64,000 bases of DNA, from NCBI RefSeq assembly GCF_900890705.1, contig NZ_CAAHFH010000002.1, positions 62,001 to 126,000 of the forward strand, written 5' to 3'. This DNA comes from Pontiella sulfatireligans (GTDB lineage Bacteria; Verrucomicrobiota; Kiritimatiellia; Kiritimatiellales; Pontiellaceae). Under the pieces are notes generated by a model, which did no database searches, was not told the DNA's origin, and saw only the letters and a program-made list of their open reading frames with translations. Numbering within the stretch: the first letter of the stretch is position 1; each line of letters begins with the position of its first letter. This document shows, piece by piece, positions 3,258 through 44,404 of this stretch. The position numbers and the translations under genes were made by a program.

Positions 3258-3288
3258 TTTTTTTCTTTTCCCTTTATAGTCGGTCATA
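3216..3288 (+). repeat. Left direct repeat: tRNA-Pro 3' half plus flank (putative attL)
   Basis: This 73-nt stretch, running from the anticodon loop through the 3' end of tRNA-Pro and into the T-rich flank ending TCGGTCATA, reappears in the same orientation at 44504-44575. Differences are two G-to-A changes in the T-arm of the right copy and a few changes in the T-tract. Same-strand 3'-tRNA duplication is the usual footprint of tyrosine-recombinase integration. Confidence 0.85.
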
Positions 3289-11449: not shown

Positions 11450-11476
11450 TACGGATGCACAGACGAAACCTAAACA
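11450..11476 (-). promoter_or_regulatory. Island promoter element 1 (TGTTTAG - 13 nt - ATCCGTA)
   Basis: On the minus strand TGTTTAG at 11476-11470 and ATCCGTA at 11456-11450, 72 nt upstream of the first sulfatase of the five-gene operon. Spacing and the CCGTA block fit an ECF -35/-10 pair. Confidence 0.75.
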
Positions 11477-11525
11477 GCCACTTTAAAGAATCAACGCGAA
11501 CACCCCTGCGGAGAGATCAATGTAT

Positions 11526-12983
11526 TCAGTCTCTTTCCATGTTTTTGAAGGCATGGGCGGGAAGCGGCATATAATCGCCTTCCCGCACCATCCAGCAATC
11601 CAATTTTTCGCGCATCGCCACCTCGACGTCCGCAACAGCGGCCTGCCCTGCCAGGTTGTTCAGTTCGAACGGGTCCTTCTCCAGATCGTAAAGTTCGAAG
11701 ATGGGGCGGGGATTCTGGAAAAAGATCCTTTCGTGTACCCCTTCAAGATGCCCCTCCTGATGTGCGGCCTTGATGGCCTCCCACGCCACGTTTTTTTTCG
11801 CCATATCAACCGGAGTATAGCTGCGCTCGGGAATCCCGTTATAAATAAAGTTGTAGCGCTTCGTGACGACCGAGCGCGACAGATCAAACCCATCGGTACG
11901 GGTAATCGGTCCAAAGTGCCAACTTCGCTCACCAAAGATCTGCTCCTGCCCTTCGAACGCTTGGTCCAGCAAAAGTGGTTTAAAATCCTGTCCCGTCATA
12001 CCCTCGTCGGGCGCAACCCCCGCCGCGCTGAGCATCGTCGGCGCGAGATCAATACCGCTAATCAGGACATCGCTCACACTCCCAGGTTGAACCTTGCCCG
12101 GCCAGCGCACCATCAACGGGACATTCAACCCGCGGGAGAAGAGCGTGCCCTTGCCGCGCAACAGGGCTTCGCCATTGTCGCCCATAAAGAAGACCAGCGT
12201 GTTCTTATCCAGTCCTCGCTCTGCGAGCACTTTCATTATCATACCGAATCCGATGTCCAGATCGCGGACTTCGGCCAAGTAGCGGGAATAGTCGAGCCGC
12301 ACTTCCGGAAGGTCCGGCCAGTCCCCGGGGAGCTTCAGTTCGGCCGGATCGATCCCTTCGTGATCGTCGCCCCATTTACGGTGAGGCTGGTTGAAGCCGA
12401 AATAAAGAAAGAACGGCTTGTCCGCCGGCACTTCATCGAGCACCGCCCCGAACATGCCGGGCACGTTCTTCAAATACTCGCCTTTGGTTTTGGCGCCCCG
12501 CACAAAATGATCGAACCGCGATTCAAAAAGCGGACCGCGCATGCCCAGTTGCTCCAGCGTCTCCGTGACATGTGGCGCATCCTTGTTCTGCCCGTCCAGA
12601 TGCTGATGACGTCCATCCAGACCCACCCAATATCCGGCGGCGCGCAGCAGGTCGGTCACAAACGGCGTTCCCGGACGGGCCGGCTGAGCGAACCGGGTTG
12701 AGGAAATCCCCACCGGCGAGCGACCGGCAAAAATCGAGATGCGTGACGGAGCGCATTGAGGTGCCGCCGTATAGGCGCGGGTGAACCGCATACTTTGCTC
12801 CGCAAAGTCGTCCAGGTTCGGGGTAAGGTTCAGCCGCGTACAGTTTACATCCCCGTAAGCGCCAAGATGCGGAACACTATGGTCGTCGGAAAGAACCAAC
12901 AGAATATTCGGTCGCTCTGCCATCACCGAAACCGTGAACAGCTGCGTAATGACCATCATGTTAGCAAAAAAAGTTTTCATCAT
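11526..12983 (-). CDS. Secreted S1-family sulfatase, sulfamidase-like
   Basis: A 485-residue sulfatase with a signal peptide ending SVMA. The metal-binding block LVLSDDHSVPHLGAYG and motif C77-A-P-S-R81, with MGDNGE later, resemble heparan N-sulfatase (sulfamidase)-like S1 members; true specificity is unknown. It begins within an ATGA overlap with the SGNH esterase gene, and GGGGAGGA touches the first ATG, so the second ATG three bases downstream is also possible. It is the last gene of the four-gene operon led by the sulfatase at 15184-16725. Confidence 0.96.
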   Translation of the reverse strand: MMKTFFANMMVITQLFTVSVMAERPNILLVLSDDHSVPHLGAYGDVNCTRLNLTPNLDDFAEQSMRFTRAYTAAPQCAPSRISIFAGRSPVGISSTRFAQPARPGTPFVTDLLRAAGYWVGLDGRHQHLDGQNKDAPHVTETLEQLGMRGPLFESRFDHFVRGAKTKGEYLKNVPGMFGAVLDEVPADKPFFLYFGFNQPHRKWGDDHEGIDPAELKLPGDWPDLPEVRLDYSRYLAEVRDLDIGFGMIMKVLAERGLDKNTLVFFMGDNGEALLRGKGTLFSRGLNVPLMVRWPGKVQPGSVSDVLISGIDLAPTMLSAAGVAPDEGMTGQDFKPLLLDQAFEGQEQIFGERSWHFGPITRTDGFDLSRSVVTKRYNFIYNGIPERSYTPVDMAKKNVAWEAIKAAHQEGHLEGVHERIFFQNPRPIFELYDLEKDPFELNNLAGQAAVADVEVAMREKLDCWMVREGDYMPLPAHAFKNMERD

Positions 12984-13738
12984 TCCTCCCCGGAAGATTT
13001 GCGTGATTCATATTGAAGCTCTGTTTTCATGAGGATCGGGCTTAATTTATCTCTCCAAATCACATAGCCGTCGCGGGTCATGTGCAGGTCATCTTCCTCG
13101 AAGAGATTTTTCAGTGGCTTCCCTTTGTCATCCATCATGCCGGATGCAATATCCACATAGGTAAGTCTAGCGTCCTTATCGCATTCTGCTTCGATGAGGT
13201 GGTTGGCCTCCTGCATCTTGGGCCAGAGCTGCCATCGCTTGATGCTGGGTTTTATCGACAGGACGTAAATGCGGCATTCCGGTAACTCGCCAAGCACCTT
13301 TTCAACGAACTTGCGGAACGTGTCCGCAATGACTAACGGAGAAATCCCCTGGCCAATATCATTATCCCCCTCATAGAGGACGATTGCGCGCGGCTTGTAA
13401 GGAAGCACGATTCGATCGGCATAATGAAGCGCATCGTTCATATTGCTCCCACCGAAACCGCGAGGAATAACAGTCAGCGGAGTCAAATCATTTTGAAGGG
13501 TTTCCCATTTCCGCATGCTTGAACTGCCGACACAAACGATCGCTCCCTGTGGTGGCGGTTGTTTTTCGTCGGTGGCTTCGAAGCTTTGAATCGCTTTTTC
13601 AAAGCGCTCGGGACTTCTGTAGGTCTGGCCGCCATCCGATCCGGATTCCTGCGCGCATACAGGTATATGCATTGAAGTCAGGGCGAACGTTATGCAAAGA
13701 CCCATCACCATTTTTCTCATTGTAGCCATGCCCGTCAT
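12980..13738 (-). CDS. Secreted SGNH/GDSL hydrolase (probable carbohydrate esterase)
   Basis: A 252-residue protein with a signal peptide ending VCAQ. The four SGNH blocks are visible: block I VGSSSM (Ser73), block II GGSN (96-99), block III GDND (124-127) and block V DLHMTRDGY with the catalytic Asp/His. Such enzymes remove acetyl or other acyl groups from sugars or act as lipases. Between a sulfatase and a glycosidase, deacylation of the polysaccharide is most likely. Several in-frame ATGs occur in the first ten codons; MRKMVMG is a plausible alternative start. Confidence 0.9.
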   Translation of the reverse strand: MTGMATMRKMVMGLCITFALTSMHIPVCAQESGSDGGQTYRSPERFEKAIQSFEATDEKQPPPQGAIVCVGSSSMRKWETLQNDLTPLTVIPRGFGGSNMNDALHYADRIVLPYKPRAIVLYEGDNDIGQGISPLVIADTFRKFVEKVLGELPECRIYVLSIKPSIKRWQLWPKMQEANHLIEAECDKDARLTYVDIASGMMDDKGKPLKNLFEEDDLHMTRDGYVIWRDKLSPILMKTELQYESRKSSGEE

Positions 13739-13791
13739 CGTCTTATCCCACGCTAATACTCTGTTTTCAGATTCTATATCTGCTTAATCTT

Positions 13792-15183
13792 TCATTCAAT
13801 GAGTTCAGCACGAATGCACACATCCAAATAGGCGGCGGCGGACCAGAGCTGATGGCCGGAACCCCCGATGAGCCCGTCCGGCAGTGAAATCTTTTCGTGG
13901 AAGGAACCAAAGCCGGCGTCCCATTCCTCACCCGCTGGAATTTTTTTCGGCGGTTTGATGGCCGTTCCCAGCGAACGCGCAAGCAACGCCGCATTATAAT
14001 CCAGCGTATCTTCGCCGGTCGCTATGGTTTTACCGTGCAAAAAGAAGGTGCTGCAAAACGGCCAGCTAGCCTGATTATGATCGCCCTTATTATCGAGGAA
14101 CGGGAAGAACAACGGGATGCCCTTATCCGTTGTCGGATACCCTTCATAGGCCACCTTCGCCGCGTCGCCTTCGATCACACCGAAGAGTACCGCAAAGGCC
14201 GTTCCGAGGATGGGCCGGTTCGGCATCAGGACGCCGTGCCGATCTTTAAAGTAGGCCGTCGTTCCGTCCGGATTGGTCAGTTCGGTCTGAATAGCCAATT
14301 TCAGCGTAGCGGCGCGTTCGAGCCATGCCTGCTTTTCAGCGGCCGGGCGCCCCGCCTTTTCACAGGCGTTGGCCATCGCGAGCATGGCGCGATAATAGAG
14401 GCAGTTGGTCGACAGCGCTTTCAGCAGGACGCAATCGGCCTTGCTGTAGCCTTTGGGATAGCAGGAATGCTGAATATCATGATAGAGCGCCTGACCGCGG
14501 TAGAGGCCATCCTTGGCATCAAACCACGGTTCATAGAACACCTTGAAAAATTCTTCGCCGTTTTCGAGCATCCATTTCCAATCCGCAATTTCCGGGTGAA
14601 GGGTAAAGAGATCATCAGCGGCCCAGAGCCAGACCACATCGTCGGTGCGGCGGGTGTAGGAGTTGGTCTTATATTTCAGCATGATCTCCCGATCGATTTC
14701 CGCAATCACCTCCCACGGCGCGTCAATCTCACGAATGTCATGCCCGGCCGAAACCCTGTAGCCCAATCCCCGGCGGACCTCACGGGTCAGCTTGAGTGAC
14801 GACAACATTTGTTTTGGATAAAGCTGGTTCACCCCGAGTACGCCCGCAATGGAAAGGTCGCGGGTATAGACGCGGTCGCCATACCGCGTGCCTGCACCAA
14901 AATAGACAACGCCCGCCTCATTCGTCACCAGGTTGCGCTCCACATCGTCCAGCGCGATCGCCCACATGCGCTCTGTGAGCGGTGTCACCTCGCCCTTGAG
15001 CTTAACCTGGCAACGCGGTTGCGGCAGCTGAGCGAGCGTGAACGCCCCGTTGGCATCCCGCAGGGCATCCGCCGTCATCACCAGCGGTTCCTGCTCATAG
15101 ATAAAACGAGCAGGGTGTTCCATCGCCACACAACCGGATACTCCGGCCATCAAAACTAATCCCATCAACCCTTGATAGTTCAT
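13792..15183 (-). CDS. Six-hairpin glycosidase-like lipoprotein
   Basis: A 463-residue protein with a lipobox (AGVSGC18) and a body of repeated amphipathic helices typical of an (alpha/alpha)6 barrel: acidic blocks such as DDVVWLWAADDLF, DIQHSCYPKGYSK, AGEEWDAGFGSFHEK and SGHQLWSAAAYLDV. The closest fold group is the six-hairpin glycosidase superfamily (GH63/GH78/GH95-like); I cannot assign a GH family. It begins directly after the stop of the sulfatase upstream (TAA-ATG), with AAGGTG as ribosome site, so it is cotranscribed. Confidence 0.75.
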   Translation of the reverse strand: MNYQGLMGLVLMAGVSGCVAMEHPARFIYEQEPLVMTADALRDANGAFTLAQLPQPRCQVKLKGEVTPLTERMWAIALDDVERNLVTNEAGVVYFGAGTRYGDRVYTRDLSIAGVLGVNQLYPKQMLSSLKLTREVRRGLGYRVSAGHDIREIDAPWEVIAEIDREIMLKYKTNSYTRRTDDVVWLWAADDLFTLHPEIADWKWMLENGEEFFKVFYEPWFDAKDGLYRGQALYHDIQHSCYPKGYSKADCVLLKALSTNCLYYRAMLAMANACEKAGRPAAEKQAWLERAATLKLAIQTELTNPDGTTAYFKDRHGVLMPNRPILGTAFAVLFGVIEGDAAKVAYEGYPTTDKGIPLFFPFLDNKGDHNQASWPFCSTFFLHGKTIATGEDTLDYNAALLARSLGTAIKPPKKIPAGEEWDAGFGSFHEKISLPDGLIGGSGHQLWSAAAYLDVCIRAELIE

Positions 15184-16725: not shown

Positions 16726-16751
16726 ATTCAATATCTCCACTGTTAAATGAA

Positions 16752-16778
16752 TACGGATGCCAACGCCCGTTCTAAACA
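16752..16778 (-). promoter_or_regulatory. Island promoter element 2 (TGTTTAG - 13 nt - ATCCGTA)
   Basis: On the minus strand TGTTTAG at 16778-16772 and ATCCGTA at 16758-16752, 27 nt upstream of the sulfatase start, the closest spacing in the set. The blocks match element 1 exactly while the 13-nt spacers differ, which argues for conserved recognition and against simple duplication. Confidence 0.78.
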
Positions 16779-16890
16779 GGAGGAAGCAAAGCTTAGCGAA
16801 TAAAATCGTACGCCTCACTCTTTACTTGAGTGTAGCGGTTTTCCAATGGCTGGAACAGCGAGCCGCAGCGGGATTCCTGCTATGTCCTGC

Positions 16891-23052: not shown

Positions 23053-23065
23053 CTTCACCCAACTC

Positions 23066-24115: not shown

Positions 24116-24135
24116 GATAAGAACCTGAACTGAAG

Positions 24136-32971: not shown

Positions 32972-33029
32972 ACAAAACCTCACTCGTTAAAAGAAAACTG
33001 CGGAAAAAAGTCTGTCTCCGGATAAGAAG

Positions 33030-33056
33030 TACGGTTCTGGCGGGCATATCTAAACG
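33030..33056 (-). promoter_or_regulatory. Island promoter element 3 (CGTTTAG - 13 nt - AACCGTA)
   Basis: On the minus strand CGTTTAG at 33056-33050 and AACCGTA at 33036-33030, upstream of the ten-gene operon that ends at 16891. The first T of the -35-like block is C here; core GTTTAG and CCGTA are intact. Confidence 0.7.
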
Positions 33057-33144
33057 CCTCAGTTTTTAATAAGTGCAAGAGATATGAGCCCAACGTTCAA
33101 ACTATCCCCAACCGGGCGTAATCAGTAGGGGTCGAATGCCTGAT

Positions 33145-36100
33145 TTATAGCGATTCAATGATCAGCCGAATAAATTGCTCATCCTTGGTCTCCGTCGAGA
33201 TGCGGTTCGTTACAGCATCAAAACCGTTGGTGAACGAGCCGCTGCCAACGACGGTGTAGCCGTTGGTTGTCCAGAGATTGGAAGCGAGGTTGTCGGAAAG
33301 CTCAAGATAGTAGAGCAGGCCGCTGTCGGGGTCGGTTTGCCGGACATGGATATATTCAAACCAGTTGCTCCCTCCCCCGCTCATTTTTCCAAGGGTTGGA
33401 AGATAACCGAGGTCGGAAGGATTGGTTGGATTGCCGCCGAGTCCGAATTCATAGAGGTTGTTGAGCGCATCGCCGTCATCGTTCCCTGCCGGCCCCTGAA
33501 CGAGGCTGTACTGGTTCGACCAGACGGAATACGGGGCGGGCGCAGATCCGGAAACCACCAAATTATCGATGTGGAAATGGTCGGCTACGCCTCCGGCAAA
33601 CACCGTGAAGCGGACTTGTGAAACCGCCCCATAGGAGCCCAGATCGATGTCCTCAGCCCCCAGCATCAAAACGACACTGGTATTGGTCCAGACGATATGC
33701 CATGCACCATCGTAGACTTCTGCCTGCGCATATTCACTTGGGTTGTCCAGGCTCTTCAGCTTCCAATCAAACGTCAGCCTGCTGTCGACCTGCGGCGGAT
33801 CCAGCGTGCGCGTGATCTGGCCATTCTTGGTCAGATGCGCCGCAATACTGTTCAAGTCGTTGTCTGTTTCCACCACCGCACCTCCATTGGTGCTCCAGCC
33901 AACGGCCCAACCGGTTCCGCCGGTCCACGTTCCCGACTCAAAATCGTCGCTGGCCAGCCCGCCCCCTGCCGTCGGATCTACCATGATTTTCAGCGTCGCG
34001 GTGTCGGATGCCAGAGCATTGTCCTCCACTTTGATCATAAAGGTATTCGTGCCGACATCAGTCCTATCCGGAGTCCCGGAAAGCGCGCCATCCGCTGCCA
34101 CGACCAACCAGTCCGGTCCGGAAATTCTGGAATAAGAAAGCATATCCCCGACATCATCGTCTTTCGCGGCACCGGCGAGCGTGCCGCTATAGGCCGCATT
34201 GTCTTCGGCGTTTGGTGTGTTGATGGGGTCCGTGGTAAAATACGGCGCCGTGTTGCTGGAACTTCCGCTCGAGCCTACATCAATCAGCAGAATGGCGCTG
34301 TCGGAGCCGTCCACGTCATCGGCAACCTGTATAATCCAATTGTTCAGGCCTGAATCCCCAGGACCCGGTGTGCCGGAGAGTGTCCCGTTGGTAGCCATGT
34401 TCAGCCACGCCGCGCCGGAAACAATCGAGAAGATCATTGGATCGCTATTCGGATCACTGGCCTGATCGGCCACGGAGCCGGAGCAGGAATCCCCGATGGA
34501 TGCCGCGGAATTGGTTATCGGATCGCTGCTGAACATGGGTTGATTCGCCCCGACGTCTACGGCTCCGGTCACCTGCACATTATCGATCCAGAACCGGTCG
34601 GTCGTCTGATTTCCAGTTAACTCAAAACGGACTTGCGATATGCTGCCATAGGCACTCAGGTTAATATTCGTTGATGCCAGTTCCGGGCTGCTTCCGGAGT
34701 CGCCCCCCTTGATGTTTTCGCTCCAGACCAGGTGCCATGTGCCGTTGAAGACCCAGGCCTGACCCGCTTCACCGGTTACAATCCGGTCGACATCCCAATC
34801 AAACGAGAGGGTCGCGTTGGTAAGCGGGCTGTCGAGCGAACGGGTGATCGAGCCAGCAACGTTCAACTGAACAATGGATCCGGGTGTCGCTGTGGGAACA
34901 GCGGTCCAGTCGCCGTCCCAGCCGCTTCCCCCGTTCCAGTCCCCGGATTCAAAATCATCGGTTGCAGAAGCGGAGCCGGGTACAAAGGCAAAATTCGCGG
35001 TAACGCGGGTATCTTCAGTCGGGAACAGGAACGGGCGATTGTTTGTTCCGCTCAGGTCGCCGCTCCAGCCGGTGAATTCCCAGCCGAGGGCCGGGGAGGG
35101 CTTCAGTTCAAGCATCAGGCCTTCCGAAAGGGTCGTGCTGACCGGGTCGGAATAGACCATGCCGTCATTGCGGGCGCTGACGGTTCCCTGCCCCACGGTG
35201 CCGATGTTTACATAGGCGAGCTTAACCACTTCCAACATGTGGAAAATATCGTCGTCGGCATCCACATTCAGCAGCATCAGGTCGGCCCCGTTTGGACCAT
35301 TGTTTCCGCAGACCCAATCGGTCACGATCACCGAATTAGTCTTCCAGGTGTTGGAACCGGTCTTGGTAACCGTGAAGGCGGTCTTTCCGCTGTCGCCGAC
35401 GGCATCGTATTGCAGCTCAAACTGGCCGGTGCCGCGGTCGAGATAGATCACCGAGAGCTGCAGGCGTTGCCCCGGGTTGGGCAGCAATTCATCATGAAGG
35501 TCGAAATACATCGTGTTTTTCCCATTCGCGGAGTCAAAGCTGCGGGCAAAGCGGTCGTAGGGATGCGAAGCCGTCGTCAGCGGCCCGTTGATTCGGAAAC
35601 GGCCGATGCTGGTAGCGTCCGGATCAATCTGGGTGATGAAGCGTTCATAGTTGCCCGACACGATTTCCCATCCGGAATCGTTGAAACCGGTTTGATTGGG
35701 GCGCTGCCAAACCTGTCCGCGCGTGGCTGCATACGGATCGTCCATTTGCGCGCCATGCGCGGCATTGGAGGCGCAAATTGCAATGTAGCGGTTGGTGTTG
35801 CTCTGACTGGCATTGCCATAAATCCCTTCGGGAAATTTAACGATATCGGATGAATCGAGCCCTTCATGCAGAATGCAGAATCCGCCGCGGGCCGTCGGCG
35901 GATCGAGCTCCGCCGCCCAGGTGTTGAAGAATTCAAAAGCAAAGACAATGTTGCTGGTATACGCCGTTTCGAGGCAGTTCTTGGTCACATCCCAGACGCT
36001 CAGGCCGGGATGCAGCTGCTCGACAGCGCACCAGTACATGCTCAACCGGTAATTGAGCTGGAAAAAGGGCCAGTCCCAGGTTCCGTCCATCTCGTTCCGG

Positions 36101-36978
36101 GAAAACAGTCCCAAATCGGAATCCACGGCGTGCTCCTTGAACGTATCCGTTACATCCTGCGAACGCGACAAATGATGCCCGCGCACCAGACCGGCATATT
36201 TTGCGCCGAAACCCGCCGTCACATTATTGGTTACCCAATTCCACTCGTTCGGAAATTTGCTGACCTCAATATCCTGGAAAAGCAACGGAATCTTAGGCCC
36301 CGGCCCGTCCTGAAACGCCGCGCGGTACGCTTCGAAAATGTTCGTCCGGTAGGTCAGCCACTGCGAATCGGAAATTACATAGTCAGGATAGTCAGCGGCG
36401 ATGATCTGCGGCTCTTCATAGGGCGCTTCATCGCCGGTATGCGCCGTATCCACGCGCACAAAGCCAATGATATCCTGCAGGTGCGGCGGGATGTCGTTGC
36501 GGACATGGTCGGCCAGACTCTGCACCATCTCGCTCAAATAGATTTGAAGGTCCGCATCCAGATAATAGCCATAGATAAATTGCCCGTCGGTACAGGAAGG
36601 AACGGTTCCGTCCACGACGTTCGGGTCGTAACCCGAGGGCAATGGGCCCAGCGGGTCCAGCATCCAGGGCGGCATGCTGGTTCCCGTCGATCCTGCAATC
36701 GGCTGTATCTTGATGAAAAACTTTTGGTTCTGGTCGTAGGCCTCCTGCAGCACGACATCCAGCGCCGACCAGGTAAAGTTGCTCCGTGCCGGGTTAATAT
36801 CAACCCAGTTCGCCGAATATTCCCGCCCACGGGTGAACGGATATTCAGCAACCGTGAACGCCGCCGACCGATCCCAAACGCCATAGGATTCCCTTGCCAG
36901 CCCCAGTTCGCCCTCCGCTTTCAGCGTCACAAAAACGCAAATGATCAGATATACAGTTGAATTAAGAACAAATCGCAT
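33145..36978 (-). CDS. Large secreted multidomain protein: TIM-barrel-like unit, InlB-type repeat, two MAM/LamG-like and two cadherin-like modules, C-terminal module
   Basis: A 1277-residue secreted protein (signal ending LKAEG). Residues about 22-600 are homologous to the protein at 29826-31469, keeping RNEMDG but with Thr in place of that protein's Glu166. Then come a bacterial InlB_B2-type repeat (LGWEFTGWSGDLSGTNN), a sandwich starting ATDDFESGDWNGGSGWDG, two cadherin-like/He_PIG modules (GTLSGTPGPGDSG; GALSGTPDRTDVG), and a second sandwich starting SDDFESGTWTGGTGW. The end, NDDGDALNNLYEFGLGGNP to IRLIIESL, is a Ca-binding-like C-terminal module shared with the divergent gene. GAGG precedes the ATG at the right spacing. 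It is likely a surface-attached polysaccharide-active protein. Confidence 0.85.
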   Translation of the reverse strand: MRFVLNSTVYLIICVFVTLKAEGELGLARESYGVWDRSAAFTVAEYPFTRGREYSANWVDINPARSNFTWSALDVVLQEAYDQNQKFFIKIQPIAGSTGTSMPPWMLDPLGPLPSGYDPNVVDGTVPSCTDGQFIYGYYLDADLQIYLSEMVQSLADHVRNDIPPHLQDIIGFVRVDTAHTGDEAPYEEPQIIAADYPDYVISDSQWLTYRTNIFEAYRAAFQDGPGPKIPLLFQDIEVSKFPNEWNWVTNNVTAGFGAKYAGLVRGHHLSRSQDVTDTFKEHAVDSDLGLFSRNEMDGTWDWPFFQLNYRLSMYWCAVEQLHPGLSVWDVTKNCLETAYTSNIVFAFEFFNTWAAELDPPTARGGFCILHEGLDSSDIVKFPEGIYGNASQSNTNRYIAICASNAAHGAQMDDPYAATRGQVWQRPNQTGFNDSGWEIVSGNYERFITQIDPDATSIGRFRINGPLTTASHPYDRFARSFDSANGKNTMYFDLHDELLPNPGQRLQLSVIYLDRGTGQFELQYDAVGDSGKTAFTVTKTGSNTWKTNSVIVTDWVCGNNGPNGADLMLLNVDADDDIFHMLEVVKLAYVNIGTVGQGTVSARNDGMVYSDPVSTTLSEGLMLELKPSPALGWEFTGWSGDLSGTNNRPFLFPTEDTRVTANFAFVPGSASATDDFESGDWNGGSGWDGDWTAVPTATPGSIVQLNVAGSITRSLDSPLTNATLSFDWDVDRIVTGEAGQAWVFNGTWHLVWSENIKGGDSGSSPELASTNINLSAYGSISQVRFELTGNQTTDRFWIDNVQVTGAVDVGANQPMFSSDPITNSAASIGDSCSGSVADQASDPNSDPMIFSIVSGAAWLNMATNGTLSGTPGPGDSGLNNWIIQVADDVDGSDSAILLIDVGSSGSSSNTAPYFTTDPINTPNAEDNAAYSGTLAGAAKDDDVGDMLSYSRISGPDWLVVAADGALSGTPDRTDVGTNTFMIKVEDNALASDTATLKIMVDPTAGGGLASDDFESGTWTGGTGWAVGWSTNGGAVVETDNDLNSIAAHLTKNGQITRTLDPPQVDSRLTFDWKLKSLDNPSEYAQAEVYDGAWHIVWTNTSVVLMLGAEDIDLGSYGAVSQVRFTVFAGGVADHFHIDNLVVSGSAPAPYSVWSNQYSLVQGPAGNDDGDALNNLYEFGLGGNPTNPSDLGYLPTLGKMSGGGSNWFEYIHVRQTDPDSGLLYYLELSDNLASNLWTTNGYTVVGSGSFTNGFDAVTNRISTETKDEQFIRLIIESL

Positions 36979-37010
36979 ACATCGCCTCTTGTTTGTGTAT
37001 TTAGTAACCA

Positions 37011-37037
37011 TACGGCCCGTTTCGTTGAATCTAAACA
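37011..37037 (-). promoter_or_regulatory. Island promoter element 4 (TGTTTAG - 13 nt - GGCCGTA)
   Basis: On the minus strand TGTTTAG at 37037-37031 and GGCCGTA at 37017-37011, 33 nt upstream of the large multidomain gene. It is back to back with element 5, their -35-like blocks 40 bp apart. Confidence 0.75.
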
Positions 37038-37077
37038 CCCTGATTCTCCACCTCCACATATAAAAAAAATCAACTGC

Positions 37078-37104
37078 TGTTTAGAAGCCTCTTATGTATC
37101 CGTA
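37078..37104 (+). promoter_or_regulatory. Island promoter element 5 (TGTTTAG - 13 nt - ATCCGTA)
   Basis: TGTTTAG at 37078-37084 and ATCCGTA at 37098-37104 on the plus strand, giving a leader of about 100 nt before the LamG/FnIII gene. This is the first plus-strand copy, and it shows the element follows gene orientation. Confidence 0.77.
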
Positions 37105-37211
37105 CCTGTTATCAACCCTTCAGCAAAAGCGAACCGATTTACGGAGAAGATCGGTGTGCCATTCATGGCATCCATTAGGGTAGCAACTGCTGGATTATGG
37201 AGGAAAACACC

Positions 37212-40200
37212 ATGAAAAAGAGACTATTCATGCTGCTGGCTCTGGCAGCTTCACTGTCCGTATCGATGGCGCAGACCATCGTGAATACGGGCTTCACAAC
37301 CCCCTACACCGACGGCGACCTTGCGGGCCAGCAAAGCTGGATCGCGATGCCCAATACGGGAGTCAATGCGTTTGATGTGACCGATGCAGCCGGAAGCGGC
37401 TTTGCCGATACGGTTTCAACAACGCTCAGCACCAACGGCGGCAACTATGTCTACCGCAGCACAACCGGTCTCGGCAATGCGACCAGTGATGAGTGGGACG
37501 GCGTGATGGACTTTACCCTCAGCGTGCCCGTCCCTGACATCGGATCCGGGGATGCATTCCGCATCGGTCTCTCAACCTCTTCTACCAACGGTCTCGGCAC
37601 GGGTGCCGGAGATCTTCCGTTGCGCTTTAACACGAGCAATTCAGGCGATATTTCGATTAACGATGCAGATGGAGACTCCATGCTGACCATCGATGCCGCC
37701 ACTTTGGGATGGAATCCCGCCGCGACCAACCTCGTGACCGATCAATGGCGCCTCTCGTGGAAGCTGCGCAAAACCACCGTCAGCGACACCTATACCATGA
37801 CCTGCTCCATGGAAAACCTAGACAACCCAACCAACTTTACCGGCTCGGGCGTCTCCATGGTCAAAACGGAAGCCTATGCTAGCTCAGGCCTCCACACGGT
37901 TATGGGTCGTCCCCAGTTTGCCGAGTTCGGCGGAACAAACTCCATCAACATCACCATCGATGACCTCAGCGTCATTAAATCCAGCTCGCAGCCCGTAAAG
38001 CTGTATCCCACTCCCGTAACATCCGAAGCCGGCGACGCCGTCGTCAACCTCAGCTGGGCTGATGTCGTTGAAGCCAGCAGCTACGATGTCAAACGTTCCG
38101 ATACCATTGACGGCACCTACAGCGCAGTCGCAGGTGGCTCCGGCATTACCACCAACGGTTTCGCGGACGCCACGGTCATCAACGGAAATGTTTACTATTA
38201 TAAGGTTACCTCGATCAACGGAGGGATTACCGCCGACTCGGATCCCGTATTGGCGGAACCCGACGCCCCGGTCACCGGCCTCTTCCTCGATACCACCTTT
38301 GACACGGCAGATGGCTACACCGATGGCGATCTGGCCGGACAGGACCGCTGGAAAGCCATTGCCGACACCGGCGAAAAGGCCTTCAACGTCATCTCTTCGG
38401 GCGATGGATTTGCCGAAACGAAAACCTACTCCAATGAGTTTTCCAACGCCCTGGACAGACAGGTGTACTACAATAAACTGACCGAAAACGGAGCGGCCAA
38501 CCAATGGAGCGGCACCGTCCAGTTCCGACTTGAAGCCACGCCGAACGACGGGCTCTACGAGACCAACATCGTCGGTGCCGTCACGAACATCCAGACGGTT
38601 GCGGTGATTGACCGTGGTCAGATCTTCGACTTCGGTCTGACTTCGGACTCATCGACCACCCTTGATCCGAATGGTCTTAAGGACGTATTAATCGACGTGC
38701 GCATGCAAGGTGACGCAGATATCGACTTCGGCCTTAACGGATACAACTCAACCCAGAATACGATGCTAGAGCTTAAACGCTCGGTTCTTGGATGGGATCC
38801 GGAATGGAACAATGCAAATGAATCCAACGCACCGGTTTTCAATACCGAATGGATCACGCTGAACTGGAGCATCCGCAAAACCGCTATCGCCAACACCTAT
38901 TCGGCGGTTGTAAGTGCCACCATCGGAACAAACACCTACAGTGGCATCTATCAGTACACCGACTCCTCGGATAACAATCAGCCGACCGAAGCCTATATTG
39001 CAGAAAGCGTGCGTTTCGGCATGGGCCACAGCAAAGAAGCCGACGGGATCACGGCCGCTGGCGGAGCCACCAACGGCATCATCCATGTCAATGTGGACGC
39101 CCTTTCTGTCACGCACACCAATGCCAGCCAAACGCCGACAGCTCCCCCCTACGATCTGACCGGCACTTTGGGTGACCTTTCTGTGACCCTTGAATGGCTG
39201 GGCGGGTTCGAAGCCGACAGCTTCGACATCTACCGGTCCGATACGGATGCCGATTCATTGACCTTCCTGGACAATGTTGTGGGCAACAGCTACGAGGATA
39301 CCGGCCTGACCGATCTGCGAACCTACTTCTATGCCGTTGTGGCCAAGTATGACGGCATAGGCGACAGCGCAGCATCTGATCAATTGATTATCCGCTCACT
39401 CGGTTTTTCCGAAGTACTGTCATGGAACAGTGTGGGTGTGGTTTCGTCCGATGCCAACATCCCGTTAACCAGCATCCAGGTCACCAACGGCATCCTGAAT
39501 GTACTCGGAACCTACACGGACGGCGCTATTCTGGCTCCGTCAGAAGGCCCCGGCGACTACAGCGGCACCGCGATCTACGGGATTATCCAGAAGAAGTCTG
39601 ACGTAGAGGGCGTTACACCGGCCTTTAAAACACTGCGCATGCGGCCGGCATACTTCGACAACCGGATTAATGCCAACGGCACGCCTGTTGGTCCCAGCTC
39701 CCAGTTGCTGTATATGAAAGCAGCCGCACCGATCGACATGACAGCCGCGGAATATCAGTATGAGATGACCGCTGCCGTTAATAATCAATATCGTGCAGCC
39801 TTCCGCGACAGTGTCAGCGGAAAATGGTATGTGAGCGACGGGCTCGATGGCAACATCACTGAGCTCTTCATCGAGGACATGACCGCGGTTGACTGGCGCG
39901 AGCTGACGTTGGCGACGCTCTCCTCCACCAACCTGATGAGCGGAACAGACAATCCGATCGTTACGCCGTCCTTTACCAGTGTGGACGCAGTCGGTCTTTT
40001 CCTCGACAACGGCAGCATAAACCACCGTCCGCTGACCGTGGTTGTGAAGACGGGTTCAGCGCCTAGCAAGTATGATCTTTGGACAGACGGCTTCGGCATC
40101 TATAATGCCGATGCGGCCCGGACCAACGACTATGACCACGACGGCAGAAACAACGTCTGGGAATGGGGTTTCGACGGGAACCCGATCCTCCCCAACATTC

Positions 40201-40463
40201 AGGGCGTGCGGGATTATGACGACGTTCAGGTTGTCGGCACAAACCTGGTCTACATCTATCCGCGCCTGAAATCCGCCGACCGGCCGGACTACTTCCTGAC
40301 GGAAGATGCGAATCTACTCTACCTGCCGGACTTCACCGATAAGGAAGGTGACTACACCATTACGGCGGGCGGTACCTGGACCAACAAGCCCAACCTCGAG
40401 ATCGTGACCAACATGATCCCGACCGCAGACGCCGTGAAGTTCATCAAGCTCAATATTGAGTAA
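37212..40463 (+). CDS. Secreted protein with two LamG-like and two fibronectin III-like modules and a conserved C-terminal module
   Basis: A 1083-residue secreted protein; signal peptide MKKRLFMLLALAASLSVSMA. The start is the ATG after GGAGGAAAACACC, not the ATG five codons earlier. Two repeats open with YTDGDLAGQQSWIAM and YTDGDLAGQDRWKAI, each a concanavalin-like sandwich of about 250 residues, each followed by an FnIII-like domain (VNLSWADVVEASSYDVKRSD; VTLEWLGGFEADSFDIYRSD). A further domain leads to the C-terminus NDYDHDGRNNVWEWGFDGNP ... FIKLNIE, similar to the end of the divergent gene. No catalytic domain is evident; a carbohydrate-binding or adhesion role at the cell surface is likely. 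Confidence 0.85.
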   Translation: MKKRLFMLLALAASLSVSMAQTIVNTGFTTPYTDGDLAGQQSWIAMPNTGVNAFDVTDAAGSGFADTVSTTLSTNGGNYVYRSTTGLGNATSDEWDGVMDFTLSVPVPDIGSGDAFRIGLSTSSTNGLGTGAGDLPLRFNTSNSGDISINDADGDSMLTIDAATLGWNPAATNLVTDQWRLSWKLRKTTVSDTYTMTCSMENLDNPTNFTGSGVSMVKTEAYASSGLHTVMGRPQFAEFGGTNSINITIDDLSVIKSSSQPVKLYPTPVTSEAGDAVVNLSWADVVEASSYDVKRSDTIDGTYSAVAGGSGITTNGFADATVINGNVYYYKVTSINGGITADSDPVLAEPDAPVTGLFLDTTFDTADGYTDGDLAGQDRWKAIADTGEKAFNVISSGDGFAETKTYSNEFSNALDRQVYYNKLTENGAANQWSGTVQFRLEATPNDGLYETNIVGAVTNIQTVAVIDRGQIFDFGLTSDSSTTLDPNGLKDVLIDVRMQGDADIDFGLNGYNSTQNTMLELKRSVLGWDPEWNNANESNAPVFNTEWITLNWSIRKTAIANTYSAVVSATIGTNTYSGIYQYTDSSDNNQPTEAYIAESVRFGMGHSKEADGITAAGGATNGIIHVNVDALSVTHTNASQTPTAPPYDLTGTLGDLSVTLEWLGGFEADSFDIYRSDTDADSLTFLDNVVGNSYEDTGLTDLRTYFYAVVAKYDGIGDSAASDQLIIRSLGFSEVLSWNSVGVVSSDANIPLTSIQVTNGILNVLGTYTDGAILAPSEGPGDYSGTAIYGIIQKKSDVEGVTPAFKTLRMRPAYFDNRINANGTPVGPSSQLLYMKAAAPIDMTAAEYQYEMTAAVNNQYRAAFRDSVSGKWYVSDGLDGNITELFIEDMTAVDWRELTLATLSSTNLMSGTDNPIVTPSFTSVDAVGLFLDNGSINHRPLTVVVKTGSAPSKYDLWTDGFGIYNADAARTNDYDHDGRNNVWEWGFDGNPILPNIQGVRDYDDVQVVGTNLVYIYPRLKSADRPDYFLTEDANLLYLPDFTDKEGDYTITAGGTWTNKPNLEIVTNMIPTADAVKFIKLNIE

Positions 40464-40483
40464 TCCTTAATCCGCTACCCACG

Positions 40484-40513
40484 AAAACCCCGTCTCACCG
40501 GCGGGGTTTTTTT
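40484..40513 (+). terminator. Rho-independent terminator after the LamG/FnIII gene
   Basis: A 9-bp stem AAAACCCCG/CGGGGTTTT with a 9-nt loop and a following T-run, 20 nt after the stop. The same stem core recurs at 41540-41562. Confidence 0.9.
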
Positions 40514-40559
40514 GGGTTAGTATACAAAAATAATCAATCCGAAAAAAAACGGCTCCCCC

Positions 40560-40586
40560 TGTTTAGATCAACCCAAACGGGCCGTA
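40560..40586 (+). promoter_or_regulatory. Island promoter element 6 (TGTTTAG - 13 nt - GGCCGTA)
   Basis: TGTTTAG at 40560-40566 and GGCCGTA at 40580-40586, 38 nt upstream of the PEP-CTERM gene and directly after the preceding terminator, so this gene is its own transcription unit. Confidence 0.76.
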
Positions 40587-40624
40587 CCTTTCTTTGTAAT
40601 GTTATTAACCAAAGGGAAAACAGC

Positions 40625-41512
40625 ATGAAAAAGGGAATAGCAATCAGCCTCGCCATGGCGATGGCAACAACAATGACCCAGGCATTGGATAACTTCGACA
40701 CAGTTGAAGCCGGAAACTGGACCGCCGCCGGCGTGTGGCCGGGAGATGGCCAACCGGATACGAACAGCAATGCGCGTCTAAAGCATGACGTATCGATCAA
40801 TTCCGTTGTAGGGGATACCGGTGGGTTGCAGACAGGCCGCGGCGCTGAAACAACCTTGACGATAAACTCTGGAGGTTTTCTAAAACTTCTTTATGGAAGC
40901 GCCACCATCGGCGGGAATAATCGCGGACATTTGGTGTTGAACGGAGGAAGCCTGACTACCGCCAACGGCAACGTAATGAACATTGGCACCAAAGCAGGCT
41001 TCGGAGGAAGTTCTGTTACCGTGAATAGTGGCGGATTAACTGTGGACGGCGCGATTAAGGTCGGTGCTCAAGATTGGGCCATTTTGGCAATCAACGGTGG
41101 AACCGTTTCAGCAGCGGGCAATCTGCTTGTGGGAGCCGTCGGTTTAGCTGCAAGTTCAGTGGATCTACTTGGCGGCAGCCTGTCCGTTGATGGTTCGTTG
41201 ATTTTTGGGAATACCACCGACACGCTGAACATCGAAAACGATGCGGTTATGATGCTTAGCGGAGACGACTGGGCCGACATTAACGCAGGCATTGCGGCCG
41301 GTAATATCACCTGGGCCAACGGAGACATGGTAGACACAGCGGTTGGCCTAAAGACCTGGGACAACGGAAGCGGATCCTATCTCCATACCGATTTCGATGG
41401 AAGCGATACCACGGTTTGGGTCAACCAAACGATTCCGGAACCGGCGACGCTGGGTTTAATCGGCTTTGCCGGCGCGGTGGCCTTGATTATCCGCAGACGC
41501 TTCCTGATCTAG
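40625..41512 (+). CDS. PEP-CTERM-anchored beta-solenoid-like surface protein
   Basis: A 295-residue protein with a signal peptide (1-20) and a C-terminal sorting signal: IPEPATLGLIGFAGAVAL, a hydrophobic helix and RRRF at the end, the PEP-CTERM tripartite signal read by exosortase. The middle has glycine-rich repeats (LTINSGGFLKLLYGSATIGG; LVLNGGSLTTANGN; VTVNSGGLTVDGAIKVG; LAINGGTVSAAGNLLVG), spaced about 20 residues apart, which suggests a short beta-solenoid like autotransporter passengers. It is probably displayed on the surface or in the exopolysaccharide matrix. No exosortase gene is in this window. Confidence 0.9.
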   Translation: MKKGIAISLAMAMATTMTQALDNFDTVEAGNWTAAGVWPGDGQPDTNSNARLKHDVSINSVVGDTGGLQTGRGAETTLTINSGGFLKLLYGSATIGGNNRGHLVLNGGSLTTANGNVMNIGTKAGFGGSSVTVNSGGLTVDGAIKVGAQDWAILAINGGTVSAAGNLLVGAVGLAASSVDLLGGSLSVDGSLIFGNTTDTLNIENDAVMMLSGDDWADINAGIAAGNITWANGDMVDTAVGLKTWDNGSGSYLHTDFDGSDTTVWVNQTIPEPATLGLIGFAGAVALIIRRRFLI

Positions 41513-41539
41513 TCTTCGAGCTTCATGAAAGGCCTTTTG

Positions 41540-41570
41540 AACCCCGTCCATGTGGCGGGGTTTTCTTTTA
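41540..41570 (+). terminator. Rho-independent terminator after the PEP-CTERM gene
   Basis: Stem AACCCCG/CGGGGTT (41540-41546 with 41556-41562) and a T-rich tail. It lies between convergent units and precedes the kinase gene end. Confidence 0.85.
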
Positions 41571-41605
41571 GAAGATCCGTATTATTGCCCGGTTCAAGCC
41601 CGAAC

Positions 41606-43579
41606 CTAGTCTTTCACGATGATCCTGATCCGGTCAGAGAACTGAGAAAGATTCATGTTATCGTATTGCTCGCGGGAAACCGTCAACTCCCGGAGGTGGA
41701 TCATGCGTCGCAGCGACCTTTTGTTTTTAAACCGGGTATGGCTGATGTCCAGCACTTCGATCGGATACCCTGACTCGAACTGCAGATTCTCAATTTCGGT
41801 GCCGCTCAAATCCAGATAACGCGGTTGAAGTCCAGCCAGCACACTACTGGTGGAGCCGACTTTCTGGAGTCCGGAACCGCCCAGTTTAAGTGAACCTTTT
41901 TCGGGATCATATTCAAACACAGGATCGGTCCAATCGGGATTCAAAACCTGTAGATAGCCCTTCACAATTTTCGCACGGCCCGACAGGTTTAAGCGCTCGC
42001 GCTGATCGTAGAGCACCATCCTGAGCTCCAGTGGAATGTTAAGCGTCAAACGCGGGAAAACGGCAACCAGCTGTTCCGGCGTAAGCAACTCAGCATCCGC
42101 CTTGAGTGCGGCATATTCCCTAGTCACCTCGACCACATCATCCTCGATACCCGAACGGTTGAAATAAGCCCGTGCGGCGTTAAACCGCTGCATGGTGAAA
42201 AAGTGAAGCCCCATTTCATATAAGTAGGTAGGATTATCAGCATCTTCGTCCAACGCGACACGCAGAACCTTTTCAGCCTGCATAAAATTGCCGGCCTGCT
42301 GATAGCGGCGGACGATGGTTGTTACCGAATCATCATAGCGTGAACCCAGCACATTAAGCTCATCCTGTCCTGCCTCGTAGAGCGCCAGCATCCGCTCAGC
42401 ATCGAGACGCGCGCCAGTGGCCGCCTGCTCCTTATGACTCAATTGAATGAACGCCCAGACTGCGCCTGCCAAGCCTATGAGAACCAAGCATGAAACGGTG
42501 ATGCAGAAGCGTTTGTTCCGGCGGTAAAACAGGTTCATTTGTGTGAATACCCCTGCATTTTCCGCCTCGGTGGCAAAGCCGGTGAGATAGCGGTGCACTT
42601 CCTTGCGCAGTGCCGCAACGGATGCATAGCGCTTGGCCGGATCTGTTGCCAGCGCCTTCATGGCCACTGCATCCAGCGCCTTGGGAATCACGCGTTCCGG
42701 CGTCCGCTTGTCCGGCGGAACAATTGCGCCATCTTTCGTTTTTTGCAGGATTTCCTCGGTAGTTCCGGACAGCGGGCGCAAATAGGTCAACAGCGAATAG
42801 AGAATGCAACCCAATCCATAAACATCCGTGCGGACATCGAGTTCTTGCTGGTTCAACACCTGCTCGGGTGCCATGTTGCCGGGCGTACCCTTCAATTCGC
42901 CATAGAGCGTAACCGAACTGAGCAGATCCGGGTTCAGCAACTGGCGATCCAGTTCAAGCTCCCCCGTTTTACCCAAAACCTTGCCCATGCCCCAGTCGCA
43001 GACCAACACCTGACCAAAATCCCCAATCTGGATATTGGCCGGCTTCAGATCCAGATGCAGCACATTGATGGAATGAGCGTACGAAATGGCATCACAAATC
43101 TTGATAAAAATCTGCAGCAGGGCTTCCAATGGATAGCGCTTAAGCGTCTCCCGGTCGCCACGATGCAGCTTCTCAATCAGCTCCCTTAACGAGTCGCCCT
43201 CTTTCAGATCCATCGTGAAATACGGTTTCCCCTGCGCATTCACCCCGATGTCGTGAATGGTGATGATGTTCGGGTGCGCCAGCAAGGCCGTCAACCAGGC
43301 TTCATGAATAAACGGATCGAAAAGATCCTCCGGTGCATCGCTGCGCAGCATCGCCATGGCCAGATGGCGTTTTGCACGCGCATCATACACCTTGAAGATT
43401 TCCTTCATGCCGCCCTCGGCAATCAGCTCAGCCGTCTGATACCGCTGGGAAACCATTTTCAAACTATGCAAAGACGGATTCAGCTCCCTGGCATCGACCT
43501 GGTCATATTCCTCCGCCAGCCGGTAGAATTCCTTCACCCGCGGATCAATCGGAACTTCAGGATGATCGTTTTCAGCCAT
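41606..43579 (-). CDS. Membrane-anchored atypical Ser/Thr kinase with TPR-like and LRR-like C-terminus
   Basis: A 657-residue protein: kinase domain (about 45-330), one membrane helix (358-380), then helical TPR-like repeats and a short leucine-rich end (LDLSGTEIENLQF, VLDISHTRFKNK). HLDLKPAN (175-182), DWG (195-197) and APE are present, but the VAxK lysine of beta3 is replaced (LAMA, Ala76) and the glycine loop is reduced to EGGM. It may therefore be an atypical kinase or a pseudokinase signalling by binding. The kinase faces the cytoplasm and the repeats the periplasm. The start follows GAGGTGG and overlaps the sigma gene by 8 bp, so the two are coupled. DWG in place of DFG is common in PVC kinases. 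Confidence 0.9.
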   Translation of the reverse strand: MAENDHPEVPIDPRVKEFYRLAEEYDQVDARELNPSLHSLKMVSQRYQTAELIAEGGMKEIFKVYDARAKRHLAMAMLRSDAPEDLFDPFIHEAWLTALLAHPNIITIHDIGVNAQGKPYFTMDLKEGDSLRELIEKLHRGDRETLKRYPLEALLQIFIKICDAISYAHSINVLHLDLKPANIQIGDFGQVLVCDWGMGKVLGKTGELELDRQLLNPDLLSSVTLYGELKGTPGNMAPEQVLNQQELDVRTDVYGLGCILYSLLTYLRPLSGTTEEILQKTKDGAIVPPDKRTPERVIPKALDAVAMKALATDPAKRYASVAALRKEVHRYLTGFATEAENAGVFTQMNLFYRRNKRFCITVSCLVLIGLAGAVWAFIQLSHKEQAATGARLDAERMLALYEAGQDELNVLGSRYDDSVTTIVRRYQQAGNFMQAEKVLRVALDEDADNPTYLYEMGLHFFTMQRFNAARAYFNRSGIEDDVVEVTREYAALKADAELLTPEQLVAVFPRLTLNIPLELRMVLYDQRERLNLSGRAKIVKGYLQVLNPDWTDPVFEYDPEKGSLKLGGSGLQKVGSTSSVLAGLQPRYLDLSGTEIENLQFESGYPIEVLDISHTRFKNKRSLRRMIHLRELTVSREQYDNMNLSQFSDRIRIIVKD

Positions 43580-44195
43580 TGTATTCCACCTCATCCATCA
43601 CCGCGCGCACTTCCTTGATGAAACGGGCTTTCACCCGGTTCTTCAGCGTATAAACCGAGTCTCGTGTCAGGTTCAATTGTTTCGCAATCTCATCCGCAGG
43701 CAGTCCATCGAGGCTCAGTGAAAAAACATTAATGGCTTCCCCGGAAAAGATATTGTGCAGCCGTTCGAGGGCAAAACTGGTCATATACTGCATCCACTCT
43801 TCTTCAATCAACCGTTCCACATCCGAGGCCGGGGTGGCACGAATGATTTCGACCATGGCGCGTTCTTCTTCCAATAGTTTGCGCCGGGTTTTTACCTTAT
43901 CAAAATAGTCATACGCCGCATGTCGCACCACCCGGCCCAACCAGGTTCGAAAACGACCCTTTTCCGCATCGTAGGTTTTCAGGTTTTTCCAAAGCTTGAG
44001 CAGGATGTCCTGCACCAAATCATCGCACTCTTCCGTATTCAGCTCCATCCGTCGCAGAATGTGGTAGATAAAGTTTTCATAGTAGCCCACAAAATCCGTC
44101 CACGCCTCCTCATCGGACGGATCCTTTGCCCGCCTCAGCAACGATTTTCGAGTATTCCATTCTTCACCCACGGCACCTCCTGATTGATCCATCAT
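43572..44195 (-). CDS. ECF-type RNA polymerase sigma factor
   Basis: A 207-residue sigma-70-family protein with only regions 2 and 4: EECDDLVQDILLKLW and FRTWLGRVVRHAAYDYF (region 2), then DGLPADEIAKQLNLTRDSV (helix-turn-helix of region 4). No anti-sigma factor is nearby; instead the gene overlaps a Ser/Thr kinase gene, an arrangement known from kinase-linked ECF groups in Planctomycetes and from EcfP-PknT of Vibrio. A variant of the island promoter element lies upstream, so it probably activates itself. The start is uncertain: the ATG used here lacks a good ribosome site, while a GTG at 44171 follows AGGAGG and a TTG slightly upstream follows AAAAGGAG. Confidence 0.92.
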   Translation of the reverse strand: MMDQSGGAVGEEWNTRKSLLRRAKDPSDEEAWTDFVGYYENFIYHILRRMELNTEECDDLVQDILLKLWKNLKTYDAEKGRFRTWLGRVVRHAAYDYFDKVKTRRKLLEEERAMVEIIRATPASDVERLIEEEWMQYMTSFALERLHNIFSGEAINVFSLSLDGLPADEIAKQLNLTRDSVYTLKNRVKARFIKEVRAVMDEVEYNG

Positions 44196-44376
44196 TTCTA
44201 ACAAATCCGCACTCCTTTTGCACAACAAACCGCGGCGGTTTCAACAACCGCCGCCATGATTACATGTTCCCTTTTCCCGAGAACTCCTCTACAGAGATAT
44301 TAACATCGCAGCGGAATACCTGATCCCCGTCGGCAAGAACGCATGCACCAATACTTTCTCAAGTGGCTTCTATAAA

Positions 44377-44404
44377 TACGAATGCAGATAGGCCAGTCTA
44401 AACA
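44377..44404 (-). promoter_or_regulatory. Island promoter element 7, variant (TGTTTAG - 14 nt - ATTCGTA)
   Basis: On the minus strand TGTTTAG at 44404-44398 and ATTCGTA at 44383-44377, upstream of the sigma factor with a leader of about 180 nt. One base longer in the spacer and T for C in the -10-like block, which would fit a weaker, autoregulated promoter. Confidence 0.65.

Follow-up and report, generated by a model that had tools for sequence, protein, structure and literature searches.

Polysaccharide utilization loci of Bacteroidota can be under the control of extracytoplasmic function (ECF) sigma factors and anti-sigma factors. In group ECF43, the sigma factor is switched by a Hanks-type kinase; the examples given in the accessible text of the source papers are EcfP-PknT of Vibrio parahaemolyticus and EcfK-PknS of Xanthomonas citri (PMC8999054, PMC13147305). 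The same text proposes kinase pairing for ECF groups 59, 61, 62, 217, and 283, which keep a DAED-like motif, and four of its five listed examples are planctomycete (PMC8999054). Here we describe a sulfatase island of Pontiella sulfatireligans, a species whose strain F21 is reported, in the part of the paper available, to have 480 sulfatases (PMC7356697). The window, i.e., the whole stretch of 64,000 nucleotides (nt) that was analysed, is G000:C2:62001-126000, where G000 is the organism's own genome (7,395,795 bases in five contigs, C1, C2, C3, etc.). The island has seven copies of a two-block element with the consensus TGTTTAG-N15-CCGTA and also encodes an ECF sigma factor and a membrane Ser/Thr kinase. 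The element is probably the promoter of this island-encoded sigma factor, serving a self-contained, autoregulated regulon, with the kinase as its likely input and the design repeated elsewhere in the genome.

The island is similar to the Bacteroidota loci in being a degradative gene cluster with its own dedicated regulator. Unlike them, this island has a kinase, and Pfam scans of its 24 genes give no match at 0.001 to SusC/SusD-like proteins, TonB-dependent receptors, or anti-sigma factors. As in ECF43, the ECF sigma gene adjoins the gene of a membrane Ser/Thr kinase. In ECF43, however, the acidic motif of region 2.2 is absent and a phosphorylated Thr is found there, whereas the family described here is acidic at this place; the kinases described here also lack the VAIK lysine. 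The ECF43 roles named in the accessible text are polymyxin resistance or the type VI secretion system, not sulfatase islands. With ECF59, 61, 62, 217, and 283, the likeness is the proposed kinase pairing and the DAED-like motif, as far as the available descriptions of these groups go. The accessible parts of two Pontiella papers describe no sigma-based control, and one of them proposes two-component systems close to sulfatase and glycoside hydrolase (GH) genes. In a literature search covering few subscription papers, neither sigma-kinase sulfatase islands in this group nor a WNK-type lysine relocation in bacterial Hanks kinases was found described in the text that was accessible.

An earlier note, made from the window alone, had read the element as an ECF-like promoter. 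This reading predicts an ECF sigma factor, and one is present in the island, a fact that the note had not used. The sigma gene lies under its own copy of the element, and no exact copy exists in the genome outside the island, both of which support the reading. All seven coordinates that had been given for the element recur on re-search (Table 1), including the copy at 44377 with its spacer one nt longer and TTCGTA as the second block. Each copy points at a gene (7/7), and the spacers, and also the flanks, are dissimilar among copies. TGTTTAG had been given for every copy; it is exact in six, and the copy at 33030 has one mismatch (CGTTTAG).

The pattern TGTTTAGN{12,15}NNCGTA has six matches in the window against 0.02 expected, and none of 100 shuffles reaches six. 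The word TGTTTAG itself occurs six times in these 64 kb, each time as part of the element. In the whole 7.40-Mb genome, exact TGTTTAG-N15-CCGTA occurs five times, and all five are within the island. A looser form occurs 12 times (six in the island) and the N15 form with at most one mismatch 18 times (six in the window), numbers that are exceeded by the reversed-pattern control (17 vs 12 and 56 vs 18, respectively). Since the loose forms show no genome-wide excess over this control, the signal is the local clustering and placement of the copies. When a weight matrix of the seven sites is run over 596 kb, the seven rank first. The next three matches score clearly lower and belong to a neighbouring paralogous island, two more sites of which are found lower still, among background. 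The claim that no copy exists upstream of genes outside the island is correct for the rest of the window, but C2:28468 and C2:58051 head genes of that neighbouring island. The expectation that the element would be found at sulfatase operons generally did not hold: exact copies are only in this island, and other sulfatase-bearing islands show other elements.

ECF promoters of the sigma-W type have the geometry TGAAAC-N16-CGTA. In the island element, TGTTTAG would be the -35-like block and CCGTA the -10-like block of an alternative sigma factor's promoter. As had been proposed, the element stands at the head of each transcription unit: gene spacing suggests seven units with 24 genes, of which nine are sulfatase genes by Pfam, and all seven units have it. 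When starts are picked by a Shine-Dalgarno-like sequence before them, six elements lie 26-107 nt upstream of a start codon (11378, 16725, 32971, 36978, 37212, and 40625), and the seventh lies about 170 nt upstream of the TTG where the sigma gene probably starts. Two copies seem to be within open reading frames (ORFs) because the longest ORF is over-extended. One unit encodes the sigma factor with the kinase and another a PEP-CTERM protein; a divergent pair of units encodes one large protein each, and the remaining three are sulfatase operons with 10, 4, and 5 genes. Unit 32971-16891 has four sulfatases, a melibiase-like GH, a GFO/IDH oxidoreductase, a 3-keto-disaccharide hydrolase, and others. 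The 463-aa protein of unit 16725-11526 has only sub-threshold GH matches, and a Pfam scan of ORF 37197-40463 gives no match.

Table 1. Positions in the window of the candidate promoter elements, the regulatory genes, and the island edges
Feature	Position	Strand	Context or evidence
Promoter element (predicted)	11450..11476	-	Heads 5-gene unit 11378-3867: 3 sulfatases, melibiase-like GH, aldose epimerase
Promoter element (predicted)	16752..16778	-	Heads 4-gene unit 16725-11526: 2 sulfatases, GDSL lipase, 463-aa protein
Promoter element (predicted), CGTTTAG variant	33030..33056	-	Heads 10-gene unit 32971-16891
Promoter element (predicted)	37011..37037	-	Heads large surface-type protein, ORF 33145-36978 (He_PIG, Flg_new_2 domains)
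Promoter element (predicted), divergent from the 37011 copy	37078..37104	+	Heads ORF 37197-40463, likely start 37212
Promoter element (predicted)	40560..40586	+	Heads PEP-CTERM protein 40625-41512
Promoter element (predicted), spacer +1 nt, TTCGTA	44377..44404	-	Heads sigma factor and kinase
ECF sigma factor, 218 aa	43572..44228	-	Sigma70_r2 6e-19; TIGR02937 74.5 bits vs cut-off 42.9
Membrane Ser/Thr kinase, WNK-type relocated lysine (K64; A81 at VAIK lysine)	41606..43594	-	Pkinase PF00069 and alignment
tRNA-Pro (TGG), left island edge, 3' end toward island	3181..3257	+	ARAGORN, Rfam
72-nt copy of tRNA-Pro 3' half and downstream bases, right island edge	44504..44575	+	blastn

Two other explanations of the element need to be considered at this point. 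It may be the operator of a DNA-binding activator or repressor, with transcription carried out by another sigma factor; the distance of 26-107 nt to the starts would fit this too, and another neighbourhood has an operator-like palindrome. The element, however, is non-palindromic and consists of two unlike blocks at a fixed spacing of 15-16 nt in one orientation to the gene, its first block tracks the sigma tree (see below), and the island has an ECF gene, with no further DNA-binding regulator in the Pfam matches of its 24 genes (four of which have no match at 0.001). An operator is thus quite unlikely. The copies may also be what is left of a dispersed DNA repeat or of an RNA leader element, with no function as promoters, as several near-identical short sites exist in one region. 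This is very improbable given the dissimilar spacers and flanks and the systematic position before likely starts; in addition, Rfam at the gathering threshold gives tRNA only.

The sigma factor is a short protein that passes the cut-offs of TIGR02937 and Sigma70_r2, as expected for the ECF type; its region 4 is weak (20.5 bits vs a cut-off of 25.7). Its likely start is the TTG at about 44204 after AAAGGAG (by eye), and its ORF overlaps that of the kinase. Membership in TIGR02989, the Rhodopirellula/Verrucomicrobium sigma family, is rejected (42.7 bits vs a cut-off of 124.55). Membership in ECF43 is also rejected, because region 2.2 is acidic (EECDDLVQD in the window sigma) and not QTTA/STTA with a phospho-Thr. 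Asp or Glu is found at aligned positions 71 and 74 in 72/74 and 74/74 sigma factors, respectively. A threonine at aligned position 30, present in all 74, may be structural. A plasmid search for the sigma factor gave no match. In the sigma leader, directly before the ribosome-binding site, an inverted repeat GCGGCGGTT-GTTGA-AACCGCCGC is seen by eye (window 44232-44254, minus strand).

If the element is the promoter of this sigma factor, the sigma factor would bring RNA polymerase to all seven units including its own gene, for which the copy at 44377 predicts autoregulation, and the island would be a module that amplifies its own expression. The likeliest candidate for the input is the membrane kinase with its overlapping gene. 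The part of the kinase that lies beyond the membrane helix may sense a substrate or surface signal, and its kinase domain may phosphorylate or otherwise activate the sigma factor. From the sequence we infer the recognition of the elements by the island sigma factor, the activation by the kinase, and the signal.

The kinase matches the Hanks-type model PF00069 with 108.2 bits against 31.7. It has a long helix (361-433) with a hydrophobic stretch, a weak tetratricopeptide repeat match, and a C-terminal part that is leucine-rich-repeat-like by eye. Its nearest solved relative is PknB. In the gap-free alignment from the P-loop to strand 3, the lysine of the PknB AVK motif is opposite A81, and the third P-loop glycine position is K64. 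The VAIK lysine by which Hanks kinases are recognized is Ala in all 25 aligned kinases, in which K64, E98 (the alpha-C glutamate), D182, K184, N187, and D200 are likewise invariant. Of 76 kinase rows fetched, 14 were gapped and 8 were duplicates; among the 54 distinct assessable domains remaining, 53 have this combination of Lys and Ala, the exception being a more distant kinase. The matches that PADLOC gives for the kinase look like those of kinases in general.

This is the relocation described for WNK kinases, in which, according to the accessible part of a 2007 survey, the lysine is shifted from 72 to 55 (PKA numbering) and which that survey regards as the only functional eukaryotic protein kinase family with a relocated lysine (PMC1821047). 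The offset between K64 and A81 is 17, the same as that between residues 55 and 72 (PMC1821047). In a structure model (mean predicted local distance difference test score, pLDDT, 82; predicted template modeling score, pTM, 0.51), K64 opens strand 64-71 (strand 2) and A81 is in strand 76-83 (strand 3). As in WNK, the lysine stands at the third P-loop glycine position instead of in strand 3, a comparison based on alignment, residue offset, and strand assignment. In WNK, on the accessible text, Cys replaces the strand-3 lysine (PMC12599244), while here it is Ala. WNK is also eukaryotic, whereas this kinase is a bacterial membrane protein encoded next to a sigma gene, is closest in sequence to PknB, and has HLD (for HRD) and DWG motifs. 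No WNK family member is among its 14 matches at 1e-20, of which PknB is the best, and none is among the 60 of 537 matches listed in a kinase-profile search.

It is possible that the promoters are real while the kinase is a catalytically dead pseudokinase, i.e., a scaffold or an anti-sigma factor that does not phosphorylate. The missing VAIK lysine (53/54 domains), HLD in place of HRD, and the still acidic region 2.2 of the sigma factor all fit this explanation. On the other side, the lysine at the WNK position and the other catalytic-site residues listed above are invariant in 25/25 kinases, which suggests selection for catalysis. A dead kinase is therefore judged somewhat unlikely, though less so than an operator.

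The relocated lysine also tends to coincide with an adjacent sigma gene. In a kinase-alignment scan of named genomes (best 80 of 577 loci), where an adjacent family ECF gene means a match at E<=1e-40 within 1.5 kb, such a gene is found at 29/39 relocated-type loci and at 0/40 canonical ones; one locus is unreadable. The Fisher p for type against ECF is 2e-13, for loci that are not independent and with canonical ones that are more distant relatives. Six canonical loci have weaker ECF matches (6e-13 to 2e-6) below the threshold, and five of the 10 relocated-type loci without ECF have less than 1 kb of DNA on one side. By sequence, relocated-type kinases are found in records of Kiritimatiellales, Lentisphaerota, Verrucomicrobiota, and Planctomycetota.

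The sigma factor belongs to a large family, with 26 members in its own genome at E<=1e-20. Among 58 genomes (own included), the sigma family is present in 26, all within the organism's own taxonomic family (29 genomes), and in none of the 29 genomes from other taxonomic families. In 20-kb neighbourhood maps, a family kinase is near 23 of the 26 sigma genes, in some cases a few kb away; C1:1992254, C1:2480194, and C1:27543 have none. Sigma and kinase identities over the 23 pairs are correlated (Mantel r 0.84, reached by 0/5000 permutations), as expected if pairs duplicate and move together. PEP-CTERM proteins like that of the window exist in 13 of the 26 neighbourhoods, the window's included, with up to 69% identity. 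The window sigma groups with six others in one clade (100/99). Sites of the TGTTTAG type are found near six of the seven, two as single sites; the seventh is on a 5.2-kb contig of relative G026 that has none. The sigma frames of two duplicated stretches (L070 and L075; G000:C3:346900-366800 and C1:2470500-2490400) are almost identical; the one at C1:2480194, which is among the three without a family kinase, diverges completely near its end.

Closely related sigma factors elsewhere have elements with the same first block and a mostly different second block. The neighbouring island, with a sigma factor of 57% identity, has the element (T/C)GT(T/G)TAG(A/G) with TCGTA or GGCGTA (C2:28468, 30137, 40633, 50814, and 58051). 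Sister sigmas C3:13551 and G005:C2:278467 have CGTT as the second block at one and four sites, respectively. If the sigma of the neighbouring island or another paralog reads the window promoters, there would be cross-talk and not private codes. The first block is common to these elements, and C2:28468 and C2:58051 are similar to the window form. The five neighbouring sites, however, have TCGTA or GGCGTA and not CCGTA, and the neighbouring sigma frame has an in-frame TAG, so that cross-talk is unlikely. This frame (G000:C2:52836-53435; L014, L053) is the nearest paralog of the window sigma; the adjoining kinase is open over 658 codons, and the frame is possibly a decayed sister switch.

More distant members of the family, to which elements were assigned by neighbourhood, have other sequences. 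Sigma C1:1282062 has TGTCCNGTTT-N13-GGTAACA, with six exact matches in 7.4 Mb, all within one 25 kb beside the sigma gene. One one-mismatch and one two-mismatch copy are within 50 kb, and two more two-mismatch matches are elsewhere. This is the strictest case of local confinement. The island of sigma C1:2002759 has TGTTTAGA..CTGAATGAA twice and a variant, and the others are TCATCAAA..CGGAGTT (C1:2045488), ATCAAAA..GCGGCGTT (C1:2442967), GTCAAAA..GCGGTGTT (the C1:1992254 area), CACTGTTTTGGCG..CCAAGCC (C2:289726), and CTGTTWAGG..TTCGTATA in relative G005. Motif finding covered 27 sets, including a non-island flank, with 60 dinucleotide shuffles as control. For eight sets the score is reached by 0/60 shuffles; since one of these is a palindrome of another kind, seven count as non-palindromic motifs. 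Cross-scanning 1.17 Mb shows elements of types C and G confined to their islands; six of eight A type matches with at most one mismatch are in its island, and B and TCAAA types are looser, with scattered two-mismatch matches. In orthologous islands, G005 (L165) has one TCAAA-type match, and nothing convincing was found for the GGTAACA element in that of G017. Where several islands have their own element, sister sigma factors could be active together and show little cross-talk.

The presumed -35 recognition helix varies with the element. It is LKNRVK or LRNRVK in the six labelled sigma factors whose elements contain TGTTTAG or GTTT, and the three with assigned TCAAA-type elements have LKSRVK. 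Because these groups are also related by descent, this is a lead and not proof.

Some other sites were seen along the way. At G000:C1:1991147-1991220, one sulfatase has two tandem elements (TGTTTAGA..CTGAATGAA and GTCAAAA..GGGGTGTT), as if it were shared by two sigma factors. The palindrome TGCGCAAATA..ATTGCGCA is found before several genes beside sigma C3:13551 (L054, L115; G000:C3:23-35 kb) and looks like the operator of some other regulator. At G005:C2:240260-240330 (L109), tandem CTGTTTAG units exist right at a promoter-like site, as if the first block had been amplified. About ten copies of TTTCTA-N13-TCAATCCACA are upstream of ORFs in L079 (G000:C2:126001-140000), possibly a gene-cassette array.

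Several observations weigh against a self-contained, kinase-gated regulon of repeated design. First, because region 2.2 keeps its acidic residues, the phospho-switch of EcfP is inapplicable as such, and the kinase cannot act exactly as PknT does on EcfP. Second, the sigma genes are at best moderately associated with sulfatases. Taking the best 150 of 509 sulfatase candidates, 9/26 sigma genes have one within 10 kb (8.1 at random, no enrichment) and 21/26 within 20 kb (13.2 at random; 2/2000 draws reach this), a moderate excess. Third, relatives have few copies of the element. Exact matches in eight relatives searched amount to four, in two genomes; the gap upstream of the gene for the G026 ortholog of the sigma (73%) lacks a site, and the G026 genome (86% complete) has no exact match. 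Fourth, the codes of other islands are not always clear. In 19/27 sets, including the non-island flank, nothing beyond shuffles was found; the motif score of island B, which rests on five sites anchored on the first block, is reached by 9/60 shuffles; and the finder's filter for similar spacers was applied to real data only, leaving shuffles unfiltered. Two of the significant sets (C1:2002759/1992254 and C1:2045488) have DNA and sites in common. Two sites near G005:C2:278467 read CGTA, i.e., the second block is not cleanly split, and the C2:289726 element is nearly one continuous block. Finally, a clear copy before its own gene exists for the window sigma only, C1:2045488 and C2:289726 having weak candidates there. 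Exact dyad enumeration in 20-kb pieces and seeding on sigma upstream regions gave little beyond noise outside the window.

The 41-kb island is bracketed by tRNA-Pro and a repeat of its 3' half, a direct repeat at both edges as in tRNA-integrated islands. Positions 44504-44575 match 3216-3288 with 93% identity and one gap (blastn), and the only other match in the genome is weak (77%, C2:2074). The right edge lies 100 nt beyond the last element. The repeat is presumably an attachment-site repeat. In relative G009 (L302, C223:1-18500), an insert of about 16.7 kb follows the same tRNA-Pro and ends in a tRNA-half copy; it has a DUF6538/Phage_integrase gene next to the tRNA and also type I restriction genes. 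This makes the tRNA a plausible integration site in the genus. No integrase match is found among the 24 island genes or in the ORF over the tRNA, and the base composition of the island is not distinct. In seven relatives, up to about 19 kb downstream of tRNA-Pro (1.7 kb in G026), the window genes are not seen except for two weak matches, one to a sulfatase (29%, G027) and one to the 1304-aa protein (28%, G017). The gene of the right flank has no adjoining tRNA in 8/8 loci, and these comparisons gave no clean empty site. Most simply, the island is an inserted unit whose integrase is gone, and it may have been mobile. An IS66 transposase gene is found to the right of the island (window 57283-58764, minus strand).

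A bolder picture, in which many private sigma-promoter channels are gated by lysine-relocated kinases, is supported in parts. It would have at least 20 sigma-kinase channels in this one genome, with a private promoter code for each polysaccharide island, all of it disseminated as plug-in modules, and the kinases would be an independent, bacterial relocation of the lysine of the WNK type, maybe, by speculation, ion-responsive as WNKs are. We hold this picture only tentatively, as possible but short of even.

For a bacterial group very rich in sulfatases, the island provides a concrete rule of regulation. If the private codes are confirmed, one genome would have a natural collection of sigma-promoter pairs for deriving the rules of promoter specificity, and the elements would allow hundreds of sulfatases to be grouped by regulon. 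The lysine relocation, if true, would be a bacterial counterpart of the WNK trait and would mark sigma-coupled kinases by sequence alone.

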